Below, one piece after another: positions 11,209 through 23,680 of a stretch of DNA of 64,000 nucleotides. The stretch spans positions 1 through 64,000 of the forward strand of contig NZ_CANMRA010000015.1 in assembly GCF_947500125.1 (NCBI RefSeq). Reading direction: 5' to 3'. Position numbers and translations under genes: made by a program. Each line of letters opens with the position of its first letter. The stretch's first letter is position 1. The notes beneath the pieces were generated by a model. The model was given only the letters and a program-made list of their open reading frames with translations, had not been told where the DNA came from and did no database searches. Origin of the DNA: an uncultured Kocuria sp. (GTDB taxonomy: Bacteria; Actinomycetota; Actinomycetes; Actinomycetales; Micrococcaceae).

Positions 11209-11227
11209 TTAGGTTACCCTTTCCTTG
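11209..11227 (+). promoter_or_regulatory. DtxR/IdeR-like iron box before the Fe(III) ABC operon
   Basis: TTAGGTTACCCTTTCCTTG matches 16 of 19 positions of the actinobacterial IdeR/DtxR consensus TWAGGTWAGSCTWACCTWA. It lies 54 bases upstream of the binding-protein start, so iron-dependent repression of the importer is expected. Confidence 0.75.
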
Positions 11228-11280: not shown

Positions 11281-12309
11281 ATGCGTCGTCGTTCCCTGTA
11301 CGCCACCACCGGCATCCTGACCGCGCTGACGACCCTGGTCACGGGTTGCGGCACGCTCGGCCTGGGCGAGCAGCCCGCCGACCTGCAGATCTACTCGGCA
11401 CGGCACTACGACCTCGAGGGCGCGTTCGGCGAGTTCACCGACGAGACCGGCATCAGCGTCGAGTTCATCACGGGCGACGACGCCGAGCTCCTCGAACGGC
11501 TCAAGGCCGAGGGGGACGACAGCCCGGCCGACGTGTTCATGACCGTGGACGCGGGCAACCTGTGGAACGCCGCCCGGCAGGACGAGCTGGCCGCCCTGGA
11601 CTCCGCGGCCCTCGAGGAGGCGGTCCCGGAGGACCTGCGTGATCCCCAGGGCCGGTGGTACGGCCTGGCGATGCGCGCGCGCACCGTGACCTACAACCCG
11701 GACAACGTCGACACCGCGGAGTTCGACCCCGAGGAGACCTACGCGGGACTGGCCGACCCGAAGTGGCAGGACCGGCTGTGCATGCGGGACGCCACCTCGG
11801 CCTACACCCAGTCCCTCGTGGCGAGCCTGATCGACCTGCACGGCCGGGAGCGGGCCCTCGAGATCGTCGAGGGCTGGGTCGACAACGACGTGCAGATCAT
11901 GAGCAACGACATCCTGCTGCTCGAGGCGATCGACGCCGGCACGTGCGACGTGGGCATCAACAACCACTACTACCTGGCGCGCACCCTCCAGGAGAACCCG
12001 GACCTGAACGTCGACCTCTTCTGGGCCAGCCAGGAGGGTGCCGGCACGCACGTGAACATCTCGGGGGCCGGCGTGGTCGAGGGCTCCGACAACGCCGAGG
12101 ACGCCCAGCGGCTCATCGAGTGGCTCGCGACCGACGGCCAGAACGCGTTCGTGGACGCCAACCACGAGTTCCCGGTCAACCCCTCCGTGGAGCCCGCCCC
12201 CTCCATCGCGGCCTTCGGCGAGTTCGAGCGGATGCCCCTGAACGCCGAGGCCTACGGGGACCTCAACGCCGAGGCCGTCGACCTGCTGGCCGAAGCCGGG
12301 TACCAGTGA
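11281..12309 (+). CDS. Fe(III) ABC transporter substrate-binding lipoprotein
   Basis: A 342-residue iron-binding lipoprotein of the FbpA/FutA/AfuA family that captures ferric iron outside the cell. It has a lipobox VTGC (Cys22 region) after a basic, hydrophobic signal, then the type-2 binding-protein body with QIYSARHYDLEGAFGEFTDETGI. The C-terminal part carries NNHYYLAR, where paired Tyr residues are the usual iron ligands. The ATG at 11281 follows GGAAGAGG. The stop overlaps the GTG of the permease gene, and an iron box lies just upstream, so this is the first gene of an iron-regulated operon. Confidence 0.93.
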   Translation: MRRRSLYATTGILTALTTLVTGCGTLGLGEQPADLQIYSARHYDLEGAFGEFTDETGISVEFITGDDAELLERLKAEGDDSPADVFMTVDAGNLWNAARQDELAALDSAALEEAVPEDLRDPQGRWYGLAMRARTVTYNPDNVDTAEFDPEETYAGLADPKWQDRLCMRDATSAYTQSLVASLIDLHGRERALEIVEGWVDNDVQIMSNDILLLEAIDAGTCDVGINNHYYLARTLQENPDLNVDLFWASQEGAGTHVNISGAGVVEGSDNAEDAQRLIEWLATDGQNAFVDANHEFPVNPSVEPAPSIAAFGEFERMPLNAEAYGDLNAEAVDLLAEAGYQ

Positions 12310-13993
12310 CCGAAACCGCCGTCCTCGCGCAGACGAGGACATCGGCCCGCCGGCCGCGCCGGGCCCCCGGCTCGGGGCGCCCGGCCTGGTCGGCGCTCGT
12401 CGTCGTCGTCGCCGTGGTGGTGGCCACCCCGGTCCTGGCGGTGGTCGTGGACGGCCTGGGGAGCCTGGGCACCGCCACCCCGCCGCGCGACCTGGGCCGG
12501 ATGGTGCTCACCACGCTCCTGCTGATGCTGGGCGTGGGCGCGGGCACCCTCGTGGTGGGCGGCGGGCTCGCATGGCTCGTGACCGCCTTCCGCTTCCCCC
12601 TGCGGGACGTCCTGGTCTGGCTGCTGGTCCTGCCGCTGGCCATGCCGGCCTACATCCTGGGCTTCGTGTTCCTCTCCGTCTTCGACGTGGCGGGGCCGGT
12701 GCAGGGGGCCCTGCGCGCCGTGCTGGGGCCGGACGTGTGGGTGCCCGAGGTCCGCTCGCTGCCCGCCGCCGTGCTGGTGATGTCCCTGACGCTCTACCCG
12801 TACGTCTACCTCCTGGCCCGCTCCGCGCTGGTCGAGCAGACGAGCGGGACCTACGATGCCGCGCGGACCCTGGGCGCCGGCCGGGGACGCGCGCTCCGGC
12901 GGGTCCTGATCCCCCTGGCCCGGCCCTCGATCGCGGCGGGACTGGCACTCGTGATGATGGAGACGCTCACCGACTTCGCCACGGTGCAGTACTTCAACGT
13001 GCAGACGGTCTCCGTGGGGGTCTACCTCGTGTGGAAGGGCACCTTCGACTTCCACGCCGCCACCCAGCTCGCCGTGCTCGTGCTGCTGTTCGCCGTGGCC
13101 GTGCTGACCGGCGAACGGCTGCTCCGGGGCCGGGCCCGGTTCCACCAGCGCGGCGGCCGCGGCCAGGGGCTGCAGCCGCGGCGACTCACCGGCTGGCGCG
13201 CCTGGGGCGCCACCCTGCTCTCCCTCGCCGCCCTCTCCGCCGGGTTCCTCGTGCCCGTGCTCCAGCTGCTCGTGTGGGCCGTCGGGGAGGCGATCGGCAA
13301 CCCCGCCTCCCTCTCGGACCCGCGCTTCGCGCAGTACCTCGGCAACAGCCTCGTGGTCGCCGGGATCGCCGCCGTGGCCTGCGTGGCGCTCTCGCTCGCC
13401 GTCGCCCACGGGGTGCGGATGGGCGGCGGCCGGGCGGTGGCCTTCGCAGCGCAGCTCACGACCTTCGGCTACGCCGTTCCCGGCGCCGTCGTGGGCATCG
13501 GCGTCCTCATCGCCTTCGCCGGGCTGGACACCGCCCTCGAACGGGCGGGCGTGCCCGGGGGCACGGGGCTGCTGGTGACGGGCTCCGTGCTCGGCATCCT
13601 CTACGCCTACGTGATCCGCTTCCTCGCCCCGGCCTACCAGGCCGTGGACGCGAGCCTCGCCAAGATCTCCCCCACCGTCACCTTCTCCGCGCAGAGCCTC
13701 GGCGCGTCCCCGCTCCGGGTCCTCACCCGGGTGCACCTGCCCATCGCCCGCCCGGGGGTCGCCACGGCCCTCGTCCTCGTGATGATCGACGCCGTCAAGG
13801 AGCTGCCCATCGTGCTGCTGCTGCGCCCGTTCGGCTTCACCACGGCCTCCGTGTGGGTCTATGAGCTGGCGCGTGAGAACTTCTGGGAGAAGGCGGCCCT
13901 GCCGGCGCTCGTGATCGTGGCGGCGGCGGTCGTGCCCGTGTTCTACCTCGTCCGGCAGGCCCACCGCGGAGACCGCCACGGAAAGGTGCCCTC

Positions 13994-13997
<4 letters not shown>
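12306..13997 (+). CDS. Fe(III) ABC transporter permease (duplicated domain)
   Basis: A 563-residue FbpB-type permease that carries iron across the membrane. It contains two ABC permease halves of about 250 residues, each with an EAA-like loop: AARTLGAGRGRALRRVLIPLARPSI near 175-200 in the first half and SLGASPLRVLTRVHLPIARPG near 460-485 in the second. About 12 membrane helices are visible. I chose the GTG at 12306, which overlaps the TGA of the binding-protein gene (GTGA). The longer ORF start lies out of frame inside that gene. The next gene overlaps by 4 bases, so the three proteins are translationally coupled. Confidence 0.93.
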
Positions 13998-15178
<1,181 letters not shown>

Positions 15179-15201
15179 CGGTTTTCTCTACCCTGGTGCA
15201 G

Positions 15202-17745
15202 GTGAGCCTCCAACCTGACCTCGCCCGGGTCGCCTTCGCCGCCGATCTCGCCCGCCACGGGGACCGCCCCGCCGTTCTCACGGACGAGCTCGTCCTGAGC
15301 TACCGGGAGCTGGCCGAACGCGTCGAGGAGGTGGCCGCGCGCCTGGGGACGGAGCGCCGGCTGGCGGTGCTCACCGCCTCCAACGACATCGACTCCCTCG
15401 TGGCCTATCTCGCGGCCCTCACGGCCGGTCACCCGCTCCTGCTGGTCCCGGCGGACAAGCCGGCCGCGGTCGAGTCGCTCGTGGCGGCCTACGACCCCGA
15501 CGTCGTGCTGCGCTCCGGGAACGGGACCCCGGTCATCGAGGAGCGGCGCCCGGGGTCCCGGCACGAGCTGCACCCGGACCTCGCCCTGCTGCTGAGCACG
15601 TCCGGCTCGACCGGTTCCCCGAAGCTCGTGCGGCTCTCGCACGAGAACCTGGCGGCCAACGCCGAGTCGATCGCCGAGTACCTGGGCATCGGGCCCGAGG
15701 ACCGCGCCGCCACGACGCTGCCCATGTCCTACTGCTACGGGCTGTCGGTGCTCAACAGCCACCTCCTCCGGGGCGCCGGGCTGGTGCTGACGGACCTGTC
15801 GGTGGTCGACCCCTGCTTCTGGGACCTCGTCCGGGCCCACCGCGCCACCTCCTTCGCCGCCGTGCCCTACACCTTCGAGCTGCTGGAGCGCGTCGGCTTC
15901 GCGGACACGGACCTCCCGCACCTGCGGTACGTCACCCAGGCGGGCGGCCGGCTCGCCCCGGAGAAGGTCCGGCACTGGGCGGCGACCGGCAGGCGGCGCG
16001 GCTGGGACCTGGTCGTGATGTACGGGGCCACGGAGGCCACCGCCCGGATGGCGTACCTGCCCCCGGAGCTGGCGGCGGAGCGCGCCGGGACGATCGGGAT
16101 CCCGATCCCGGGCGGGGAGTTCCGCATCGACCCCGTGGACGGACTGCCGGACGGGGAGCTCGTGTACAGCGGACCCAACGTCATGCTCGGCTACGCGGAG
16201 CACCCGGAGGACCTCGCCGCCGGGCGGACGGTCGAGGAGCTGCGCACCGGGGACCTCGCCCGCCGCCACCCGGACGGGCTCTACGAGGTCGTGGGGCGGC
16301 GCAGCCGGTTCGTCAAGATCGTGGGCCTGCGCGTGGACCTCGGGCAGGTCGAGAGGATCCTCGCCGAGCTCGGCGTGAGCGCGGCCGCCGCCGGCGCCGA
16401 CGAACGGCTGGTCGTGGCCGCCGAGGGGGAGCAGGACACGTCCCTGCTCGCCAAGGCCGTGGCCGAGAGCATCGGCCTGCCGCGCCCGGCCGTCGAGCTC
16501 CACGCCGTCGAGCAGCTGCCCCGTCTGGGCACGGGCAAGGTGGACTATCCGGCGGTCCTGGCGCTCGGCGCACCGCCCGCCGCGCCGGAGGCACCGCCGC
16601 GGCGCCGGGCCGAGGGCCCCGAGGACGTCCGGCGGATCTTCGCCGAGGTGCTCGACCGGCCCGACGTCGGCGACGACGACACGTTCGTCTCCCTGGAGGG
16701 GGACTCGCTGTCCTACGTGGCGGCCTCCGTCCGGCTCGAGCAGGCCCTCGGGCACCTCCCGCCGGACTGGCACCTCACGCCCGTGCGGGACCTGGCCCCC
16801 CGGCCCGTTCCGCGCGGACGGGGTCTCGTCTCGTTCCTGGAGACCGGCATCGTGCTCCGGGCCGTCGCCATCGTGTGCATCGTGGCGACGCACGTGGAGA
16901 TCTTCACGTTCCAGACCGCCCACGTGCTCTTCGCGGTGGCGGGGTACAACTTCGCGCGCTTCCAGCTGACGGGGGCGCGGCTCCCGCGGCTGCGGCGCCA
17001 GCTGCGCAGCCTGGGCCGGATCGTGGCGCCCTCCGTGGCGTTCATCGCCGTCGCCCACCTGCTCACCGACGACTACACGGTCGCCAACATCCTGCTGCTC
17101 AACGGCATCGTCGGCCCCCAGGAGCTCACGTCCCAGTGGCACTTCTGGTTCGTCGAGATGCTCGTCTACGTCCTCGTGGCCGTCACCGCGCTCATGGCGC
17201 TGCCCTGGGCGGACCGTGCCGAGCGCGCCGCCCCCTGGCTCTTCCCGCTCGCCCTGCTCGCGATCGGGCTGGTCAGCCGCTACGACATCGTGGACCCGGG
17301 ACTGCCGAAGCCCGCGCCGGTGTTCTGGATCTTCGCCTTCGGCTGGGCCGCGGCCCGGTCGCGGACGACCCTCCAGCGCTCCCTCGTCACCCTCCTGACC
17401 CTCCTCACCGTGCCGGGCTACTTCGACAGCCCGGTCCGGGAGGCCACCCTGGTCGCCGGGATCCTGCTGCTGCTGTGGGTGCCCACCCTGCCGGTGCCCG
17501 TGGGCCTGCGCCGGGTGACGGCCCGGCTCGCGAGCGCGTCCCTGTACGTCTACCTCACGCACTGGCTGGTCTATCCGCCCCTGGTGCCGGTGAGCCCGGT
17601 CCTGGCCGTGCTCGCCTCCCTCGTGGTGGGGGTGGCCTACTGGGCCCTGGCCGACCGCGTGCTCGGCGGACTCCGGCGCGGACCGGTGCGCACGGCGCAG
17701 CCCGCCGACGAGGCTCCGCTCACGGCTGCTCCAGGCCCACGCTGA
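15202..17745 (+). CDS. Adenylation-carrier-acyltransferase fusion (NRPS-like)
   Basis: An 847-residue three-part enzyme. Residues 1-455 are an adenylation domain (core motif LSTSGSTGSPK at 132-141, YGATE at 274-278, RTGDL at 348-352, catalytic Lys446 in GTGKVDY). Residues about 470-535 are a carrier domain with phosphopantetheine Ser502 in EGDSL. Residues about 545-835 are a membrane acyltransferase-3 domain with roughly ten helices and a candidate catalytic His564 (ATHVE). The protein should activate an acyl or amino acid, load it on its own carrier, and transfer it across or at the membrane. An iron box precedes the gene, which follows an Fe(III) importer, so a siderophore or cell-surface role under iron limitation is inferred. 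The start is uncertain: GTG at 15202 or 15196, with no good ribosome site. Confidence 0.85.
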   Translation: MSLQPDLARVAFAADLARHGDRPAVLTDELVLSYRELAERVEEVAARLGTERRLAVLTASNDIDSLVAYLAALTAGHPLLLVPADKPAAVESLVAAYDPDVVLRSGNGTPVIEERRPGSRHELHPDLALLLSTSGSTGSPKLVRLSHENLAANAESIAEYLGIGPEDRAATTLPMSYCYGLSVLNSHLLRGAGLVLTDLSVVDPCFWDLVRAHRATSFAAVPYTFELLERVGFADTDLPHLRYVTQAGGRLAPEKVRHWAATGRRRGWDLVVMYGATEATARMAYLPPELAAERAGTIGIPIPGGEFRIDPVDGLPDGELVYSGPNVMLGYAEHPEDLAAGRTVEELRTGDLARRHPDGLYEVVGRRSRFVKIVGLRVDLGQVERILAELGVSAAAAGADERLVVAAEGEQDTSLLAKAVAESIGLPRPAVELHAVEQLPRLGTGKVDYPAVLALGAPPAAPEAPPRRRAEGPEDVRRIFAEVLDRPDVGDDDTFVSLEGDSLSYVAASVRLEQALGHLPPDWHLTPVRDLAPRPVPRGRGLVSFLETGIVLRAVAIVCIVATHVEIFTFQTAHVLFAVAGYNFARFQLTGARLPRLRRQLRSLGRIVAPSVAFIAVAHLLTDDYTVANILLLNGIVGPQELTSQWHFWFVEMLVYVLVAVTALMALPWADRAERAAPWLFPLALLAIGLVSRYDIVDPGLPKPAPVFWIFAFGWAAARSRTTLQRSLVTLLTLLTVPGYFDSPVREATLVAGILLLLWVPTLPVPVGLRRVTARLASASLYVYLTHWLVYPPLVPVSPVLAVLASLVVGVAYWALADRVLGGLRRGPVRTAQPADEAPLTAAPGPR

Positions 17746-22322: not shown

Positions 22323-23680
22323 GGGCTCGCCCGCCGTCCGCGCAGCACGTCCGCCGCGACGCGGACCACCAGGTAGCCCACGGCGAGCGTGTGCAGGGCC
22401 ACCGCGGTGAAGTAGACGTCCTCGGCGAGCGCGAGCCCGTCCCCGCCCCCGGTCAGGTGGCCCAGCCAGTGGAACACCGCCGCCCAGTGGAGGACCTCGA
22501 CGAGCTGCCACACCACGAACTCCCCGACCCGGGGCCGGGCCAGGAGCACGAGGGGCACGAGCCAGATCACGAACTGCGGCGAGTACACCTTGTTGGACAG
22601 CACGAACGCCGCCAGCACCAGGAAGGCGAGCTGCTCCAGCCGCGGCTCCTCGCGCGCCACGAGCCCCAGGACCAGGATCAGGACGCAGGCGAGGGCGAAT
22701 CCGGCGAGGGCCAGGACGTTGACCCCCTCGGCCGAGAGCAGTGGGACGTCCAGCCGCGGCGCGGCGACGTCGTTCCACCAGTGCCACACGGAGGAGAAGC
22801 CCGCGCCGCGGTCCTGGCTGAATTGCCAGAACCAGCCCCACTGCACCGGGTCCAGCAGCGCGAAGGGGAGGTTGACCGCCGCCCAGGCCCCTGCCGCGCC
22901 GGCGGCCGCCCGCAGCGCGGGCCCCGCCTCGCGGCGCCGGACGGCCAGCACGAAGACCGCCCCGAGGAGCAGGAACGGGAAGAGCTTGAACGCGGTGCCC
23001 ACGCCCAGCAGGACCCCGCCGAGCCCCCACCGCTCCCGGCGGAACGCGAGCAGGGCCGCCACGGTGCACAGCACCGGCCACAGGTCCCAGTTGATGAGCC
23101 CGGTGACCACCACCGCGGGCGCCAGGGCGGCGAGCACCGCGTGACCGGGGTGCGCCACCATCCGCCCGAGGACCAGCACGACGGCCACCCAGACCCCGGC
23201 CAGGAGCACCGCGTTGAGATCGAAATATATGCCCTGTCCGACATGTTCGCTGGCGAACGGGTCGACGGCGTGCGCCAGGACGCCGGTGGCGCTCGCCACC
23301 ACGGTCTGCAGCACGGGGTACTCCAGCAGCGCCGAGGCGTCCAGGTAGGGGAAGCGGCCCTCGGCCATGCCCCGAGAGGCATACAGCGTGGGCAGGTCCG
23401 AGTAGCAGAGCTGCCGGAACGTCTCGGGCTGCTCCCAGGTGACGAGCCGGCACGGGAGCTTGGTCAGGTACGCCAGGAGCGCGGCGTAGAGGGCGAAGCC
23501 GGCCAGAACCCACGGCCCCACGCGGAGCGCCGCCGGACGCCCGGCGGGCGGCACCGTGTCCGGGTCCACGTCACGGTCGACGTCCCGGTCGACGTCCCGG
23601 TCGACGTCCCGGTCGACGTCCCGGTCGATGTCCTGGTCGACATCCCGGGCGGCCGCACCCGTGCCGGCCCGGGTGCTCAC
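22319..23680 (-). CDS. Membrane glycosyltransferase, GT87/DUF2029, with Asp/Arg repeat tail
   Basis: A 453-residue GT87-type transferase. Residues 15-45 are a DRDV-repeat tail encoded by a 12-base tandem repeat. Then come about ten membrane segments and the GT87 features TKLPCR, LEYPVL, LINWDLWPV, GVGTAFKLFPFLLL and SNKVYSPQFVIWLVPL. GT87 enzymes such as PimE use polyprenyl-phosphate mannose, and that role is likely here too. The GTG at 23680 overlaps the stop of the CCA-adding enzyme gene (GTGA). Two tandem paralogues suggest two successive sugar additions on one glycolipid; this is an inference. Confidence 0.82.
   Translation of the reverse strand: MSTRAGTGAAARDVDQDIDRDVDRDVDRDVDRDVDRDVDPDTVPPAGRPAALRVGPWVLAGFALYAALLAYLTKLPCRLVTWEQPETFRQLCYSDLPTLYASRGMAEGRFPYLDASALLEYPVLQTVVASATGVLAHAVDPFASEHVGQGIYFDLNAVLLAGVWVAVVLVLGRMVAHPGHAVLAALAPAVVVTGLINWDLWPVLCTVAALLAFRRERWGLGGVLLGVGTAFKLFPFLLLGAVFVLAVRRREAGPALRAAAGAAGAWAAVNLPFALLDPVQWGWFWQFSQDRGAGFSSVWHWWNDVAAPRLDVPLLSAEGVNVLALAGFALACVLILVLGLVAREEPRLEQLAFLVLAAFVLSNKVYSPQFVIWLVPLVLLARPRVGEFVVWQLVEVLHWAAVFHWLGHLTGGGDGLALAEDVYFTAVALHTLAVGYLVVRVAADVLRGRRASP
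23575..23646 (-). repeat. 12-base tandem repeat inside a glycosyltransferase gene
   Basis: Six units of 12 bases run from 23575 to 23646. The first four (GGTCGACGTCCC) are identical and the last two have drifted. The length is a multiple of three, so copy-number change keeps the frame and only lengthens or shortens the DRDV tail in the cytoplasmic N-terminus. Confidence 0.9.

Follow-up and report, generated by a model that had tools for sequence, protein, structure and literature searches.

A membrane adenylation-carrier-acyltransferase fusion beside Fe(III) importers and behind iron boxes in many actinobacteria suggests an undescribed one-gene route of iron capture

Why should a single large membrane enzyme stand next to an iron importer? 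The question is raised by a stretch of 64,000 nucleotides from an uncultured Kocuria sp. (contig NZ_CANMRA010000015.1; the whole stretch is called the window hereafter), in which a gene joining an adenylation domain (A domain), a carrier domain and a membrane acyltransferase-3 (AT3) domain follows the genes of an Fe(III) importer of the FbpABC type. Here, we show that most relatives of this fusion lie beside such an importer, behind a predicted iron box, or both. An iron role of the fusion is well supported. The more specific reading that we favour, with a probability of about 0.55, is that of a one-gene enzyme induced by iron starvation, which would activate an acid lacking an alpha-amino group, load it onto itself and transfer it at the membrane, yielding an extracellular iron-binding ester that feeds the importer. 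The fusion and its parts lie in the window as follows.

15196..17745, plus strand: adenylation-carrier-acyltransferase-3 fusion gene, starting with GTG at 15196 or GTG at 15202 (849 or 847 aa)
15241..16563, plus strand: adenylation domain and its C-terminal lobe, residues about 16-456, position 235 not Asp
16624..16752, plus strand: carrier domain, Ser504 at 16705-16707
16822..17673, plus strand: membrane acyltransferase domain, residues 543-826, about ten long helices as read by eye

What kind of protein is this? The initial annotation described a single polypeptide with parts for activation, loading and membrane transfer, which is borne out by the Pfam domains and by invariant catalytic residues; its range opens at 15155, which is the position of an iron box and not the start of the gene. 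Pfam places AMP-binding at residues 16-333 (8.7e-48), PP-binding at 477-519 (4.7e-7) and Acyl_transf_3 (PF01757) at 553-803 (6.8e-10), all three above the curated cut-offs (39 bits vs 31 for Acyl_transf_3). No further Pfam domain is found at E<=0.1; at this threshold the protein has neither the condensation, heterocyclisation and thioesterase domains of classical siderophore nonribosomal peptide synthetases (NRPS) nor the IucA/IucC domain of NRPS-independent siderophore (NIS) synthetases. Among the NCBIfam matches listed (25 of 89), no model reaches its cut-off. The carrier serine is intact (Ser504 within GDSL), and all 66 aligned fusion sequences keep it together with the A10 Lys, as in NRPS-like A-carrier proteins; they also all keep Arg555 and His566 of the acyltransferase domain (Arg-x10-His), and 65 of them keep its Glu654. 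The genome to which the window belongs (4.31 Mb, 105 contigs) has a single full-length copy, the 12 other matches spanning at most 437 residues each, all within the adenylation-carrier part. An NRPS-like adenylation-carrier stretch also occurs in this genome within an open frame of 1380 residues (L006, G000:C19:3104-4459).

Fusions of this kind are present in 7/27 genomes of the genus, 39/245 of the family and 66/394 of the class, the nearest named relative being that of Kocuria polaris (92%). The 66 named loci include Arthrobacter, Pseudarthrobacter, Kocuria, Sinomonas, Nocardioides, Cellulomonas, Actinotalea, Brevibacterium, Terrabacter, Phytoactinopolyspora, Acidimicrobiales and a Thermoleophilia bin. 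In Arthrobacter sp. H41 and Hiyo4 (L079, L103) the gene matches in broken pieces. In a plasmid collection, 91 records match the fusion at 1e-60 and 53 cover more than 80% of the query; close homologs are found in Rhodococcus and Mycolicibacterium, while those of Rhizobium and Shinella stand at 37-40%. These records include 45 of Rhizobium, of which one region was viewed, and 17 of Leisingera. The copy on a Rhizobium phaseoli plasmid has YcaO-like and TfuA-like genes in its vicinity, a possible sign of a different class of product. The plasmid records viewed label the gene 'AMP-binding protein', to which one Rhizobium record adds 'acyltransferase family protein'. Because its annotation reads merely 'AMP-binding protein', the fusion is easily overlooked.

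Is its place next to an importer more than chance? In the window, the importer is made of three genes of the ATP-binding cassette (ABC) type.

11281..12309, plus strand: Fe(III)-binding substrate-binding protein of the FutA/FbpA class, with an NHYY motif and, by eye, a lipobox-like start
12306..13997, plus strand: ABC permease with two permease stretches (BPD_transp_1 twice), start codon picked by eye
13994..15178, plus strand: ABC ATPase with a TOBE domain (Pfam)

Solved Fe(III)-binding proteins match the first of these (7li0 best at 1e-82, then 6g7n at 2.5e-69 and 2pt1 at 4.5e-68), and its His229, Tyr230 and Tyr231, which include the Tyr pair of the Fe(III) class, are invariant in 13 aligned sequences. 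We compared the fusion neighbourhoods of the 65 class genomes besides the window's own, taking 6-7 kb on each side where the contig allowed (contig ends cut the regions L200, L220 and L221), with 40 control regions; these 65 genomes supplied 36 of the controls, and fusion-bearing members of the genus or family the other four. In 49/65 genomes the fusion has both a binding protein of the Fe(III) type and a permease within 6-7 kb, a pair present in 0/40 controls. The survey proposed in the initial annotation thus ties the fusion to Fe(III) importers, and a chance association is rejected by the controls and by shuffles. ABC ATPase matches occur in 9/40 controls, for which reason they were not scored as an importer on their own; one control has an A-domain-like match.

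The 49 linked binding proteins are of two types, 48 being closer to SfuA/YfuA-type queries and one to the FutA-type protein of the window; searches with three representatives return solved Fe(III)-binding proteins first. The importer is placed upstream on the same strand in 20 loci, downstream and convergent in 11, upstream and divergent in 10, and downstream on the same strand in eight. On a tree of 79 rows (the window, the 65 class loci and 13 hand-picked named loci), importer labels change 20 times against 25.9 in shuffles, where the 20 changes count both gains and losses and some 'none' labels stem from short contigs (e.g. L076, L081). Labels are thus clustered, yet they change many times. 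That importer type and order change while the link is kept argues for function rather than an inherited neighbourhood.

In the mycobacterial genus of the class sample, 7/10 loci have the fusion on the importer's strand and downstream of it; on a Mycolicibacterium chubuense plasmid (L276) it directly follows iron binding protein, permease and ATPase, and on a Rhodococcus opacus plasmid it precedes binding protein, permease and ATPase. A close binding protein is found in 13/245 family genomes, and all 13 also carry the fusion. Among the named loci, 29/66 have a binding protein or permease nearby and 37/66 have no importer; the one Arthrobacter plasmid region viewed shows no iron importer beside the fusion.

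If the fusion serves iron uptake, its expression might follow iron. Two predicted boxes fit this expectation.

11209..11227, plus strand: DtxR/IdeR-like iron box TTAGGTTACCCTTTCCTTG before the importer genes, matrix rank 1 in the window, score 20.5
15155..15173, plus strand: DtxR/IdeR-like iron box TTAGGCAAGACTTTCCTTC before the fusion, matrix rank 2, score 18.2, within the 3' end of the ATPase gene

The two boxes had been proposed from the start, and they are the top two sites of the 64 kb in a matrix built from 52 sites outside the family of the window. Non-overlapping sites elsewhere in the window score 7.5 at most, and ten first-order random 64 kb sequences reach no more than 12.0. The box core TTAGGNNANNCTNNCCT has exactly two exact matches in the window and three in the 4.31 Mb genome; the reversed pattern gives none. 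The third copy (G000:C9 near 97887, L182) lies between the gene of a Peripla_BP_2 siderophore-type binding protein and an oxidoreductase gene; flanked by the former, it also marks an iron locus. At this place the box is upstream of the Peripla_BP_2 gene, which is followed by a permease-like frame (read by eye), the oxidoreductase being on the other side. The genome has five Fe_dep_repr_C matches (DtxR-family C-terminal domains).

The boxes are also conserved. With a threshold of 13/19 positions or better, and excluding proteins of up to 500 aa and upstream pieces of less than 150 bases, 93/144 upstream regions hold a box, where shuffles predict 0.6; once identical ends are removed the count is 86/132. 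Of the 65 class loci, 43 carry one ahead of the fusion, and the number rises to 59 when boxes ahead of the binding protein are counted too; in the mycobacterial operons L162, L163, L164 and L166 the box precedes the binding protein. Three class loci have an importer and no such box (L165, L190, L216). Among the 37 named loci without importer, 35 were scored (L103 and L105 have no usable upstream region), and in 28 of these a box precedes the fusion. The sequences themselves hence support the architecture, the conservation of catalytic residues, the boxes and the link to Fe(III) importers.

How would such a protein help to acquire iron? We infer the regulation as such, the substrate, the acceptor, the product, its chelation of iron and the hand-over to the importer. 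When iron is plentiful, a DtxR/IdeR-type repressor would occupy the boxes; upon iron shortage, importer and fusion would be made. The adenylation domain would then activate a carboxylic acid without an alpha-amino group. Position 235, placed through an alignment with LgrA in GrsA numbering, is Cys in 55, Val in nine and Ser in two of the 66 fusion sequences, and never Asp, the alpha-amino-group residue of NRPS A domains activating amino acids, which suggests an acid lacking that group. The pocket residues do not narrow to one substrate. The Arg at position 331 is invariant and, though suggestive only, would suit an extra acid or hydroxyl group, hence our guess of a hydroxy-acid such as citrate or malate. 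The activated acid would move onto the carrier arm of the same protein, and the acyltransferase domain, the model of which may resemble HGSNAT, would hand it to a hydroxyl acceptor, the product ending outside. This product would bind Fe(III) and deliver it to the binding protein of the importer. As the fusion stands alone or with the importer only, it could make in one step an iron-binding ester from a primary metabolite, or else an acylated surface molecule.

Several observations weigh against this reading. Concerning the boxes, the full DtxR/IdeR consensus has no window site within three mismatches; allowing two mismatches to TTAGGNNANNCTNNCCT gives seven window matches, a number reached by 11/100 shuffles, which weakens the box evidence; and the box at 15155 agrees by simple count at 12/19 positions, a weak match reached by 6.4% of shuffled upstream regions. 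Concerning the importer, of the seven class genomes that carry the binding protein (58-60% identity), three show no fusion at E<=1e-100, so that the importer is not dependent on the fusion in every genome, and the alphaproteobacterial plasmid homologs of Shinella and Rhizobium phaseoli (L278, L279; 38-40%) have no adjoining iron importer. The initial annotation had named, as one of two findings that would speak against it, relatives whose fusion has no iron gene or box nearby. Such cases exist: neither importer nor box of 13/19 is found in 3/65 class loci (L167, L200, L223), and 7/35 importer-less named loci also lack a box (L043, L076, L081, L084, L087 from Kocuria, L094, L102). Among close relatives such exceptions are few compared with the loci that keep the iron link, and they do not overturn it.

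Further points against it bear on the chemistry. The fold-match lists of the A domain mix amino-acid domains (LgrA, PltF, EntF) with acid ligases, which makes the fold uninformative on the substrate; the VIA list of the whole model covers only the A-domain part. Plain Foldseek gives no solved relative of the membrane domain model at E<=0.001, HGSNAT having been raised by the VIA second look alone. The NRPS-like frame L006 could supply a separate siderophore. Finally, SfuABC/FbpABC systems are described, in the excerpts of PMC3534580, as carriers of free ferric ions. Such systems could strictly do without a chelator, which leaves room for an action of the fusion at the surface. If there is a soluble ester, as we favour, such importers would suit a weak ligand releasing its iron outside better than a siderophore taken up whole.

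Acylation of the cell surface is the alternative that survives best, and we regard it as possible if somewhat doubtful. The fusion would be a DltABC-like system in one chain, tying the acid to a wall polymer, a glycan or a lipid under iron shortage; the outcome would be an iron trap bound to the surface next to the binding protein, or a lowered need for iron, and no soluble siderophore. Sugars and surface polymers are the usual targets of AT3-superfamily enzymes, and the linked importer is of the free-Fe(III) type. DltABC shares with the fusion the outline of ligase, carrier and membrane acyltransferase, but consists of several proteins, with a membrane acyltransferase of a different family and an amino acid as substrate. 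What argues against surface acylation is the neighbourhood: the recurrent partners are two types of iron importer; at the 66 named loci the largest neighbour families are importer genes, and other shared neighbours are limited to sets of at most eight loci, although most of these are unannotated and a glycan gene is possible in a few loci. A hidden gene cluster around the fusion was looked for, and no other family recurs beyond near relatives in the named loci. Pfam, run on seven neighbouring or box-flanking genes, gives one BNR/laminin-type surface protein, four without family and the two flanking the third box. Elsewhere in the window, a long open frame on the minus strand contains about seven Asp-Val-Asp-Arg-like repeats (23561-23644), perhaps a coding repeat or a wrong start.

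The membrane domain might instead link hydroxy-acid units fed by the A-carrier part into an iron-binding oligomer or polyester, much as has been proposed for the fungal polymalate synthetase; we consider this unlikely. Poly-lysine and poly-ornithine synthetases join activation and carrier loading to a membrane part in one chain, with no thioesterase. The fungal polymalate synthetase does likewise according to the excerpts of PMC9210645 and PMC11905612, one gene would suffice, and polymalate is described there as handled as a calcium salt. Yet the fungal enzyme, compared here by its described architecture, has N-terminal membrane helices and a condensation domain instead of AT3. The fusion differs from the NRPS-like membrane synthetases in its AT3 membrane part, its A domain without Asp235 and its link to iron importers.

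Even less probable is a tailoring enzyme that acylates a siderophore which the cell makes by a separate pathway. Siderophores with acyl tails are known, and an IucA/IucC synthetase is present in 21/39 fusion-bearing genomes of the family sample. But it is found in 97/245 family genomes overall, and not in the window's own genome nor in 17 others of the 39. On the same counts, considered as a substitute for NIS siderophores, the fusion shows no exclusion of IucA/IucC and no clear coupling to it. Among the recurrent neighbours none was recognised as a siderophore synthetase, NRPS siderophore pathways standing outside this survey. That the fusion has no iron role, boxes and importers being coincidental, would fit the minority of relatives with neither, and is hardly credible given the excess of importers over controls and of boxes over shuffles, and the persistence of the link through repeated changes of importer.

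How does the favoured enzyme compare with known systems? The window-linked importer shares binding protein, permease and ATPase with FbpABC, SfuABC and FutABC, and its best solved relatives bind Fe(III); available excerpts on these systems mention no A-carrier-acyltransferase partner, which is present beside the importer here. EntE-EntB activates and loads an acid to start siderophore assembly, and the fold relatives of the A domain include 3rg2, the EntE-EntB fusion; our protein has no condensation partner, and transfer would proceed through its membrane domain. AT3/OafA enzymes and HGSNAT use an acyl-CoA donor, whereas the donor here would be the fused carrier. We found no described pathway or enzyme of this kind in the open-access papers searched, in agreement with the initial annotation, which knew of none with these parts.

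To our knowledge, the Fe(III) source of FbpABC-type importers in soil actinobacteria is not settled. One large membrane enzyme beside an iron importer or behind an iron switch in many actinobacteria suggests an undescribed one-gene iron capture. More tentatively, it might be a third general bacterial siderophore route beside NRPS and NIS, in which a single membrane protein under iron control would turn a primary metabolite into a simple carboxylate chelator and release it to feed FbpABC-type importers. If so, uptake called 'siderophore-independent', as by the mycobacterial SfuABC-type operon, would depend on a hidden chelator. In excerpts of the Mycobacterium smegmatis studies, the operon msmeg_3633-3636 with its SfuB-like permease (msmeg_3635) supports low-iron growth without both siderophores (PMC6684656), and sodium citrate is followed by a rise of MSMEG_3635 and 3636 (PMC10597346); these excerpts and that of PMC11052289 mention no fusion beside msmeg_3633. 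If M. smegmatis resembles the Mycolicibacterium loci, its 'siderophore-independent' uptake may include the fusion enzyme. A class-wide conserved partner of importers, possibly a one-step chelator maker, offers a concrete single-gene test. A soluble product would be a new siderophore class without assembly line, and a surface-bound one a new kind of iron trap.
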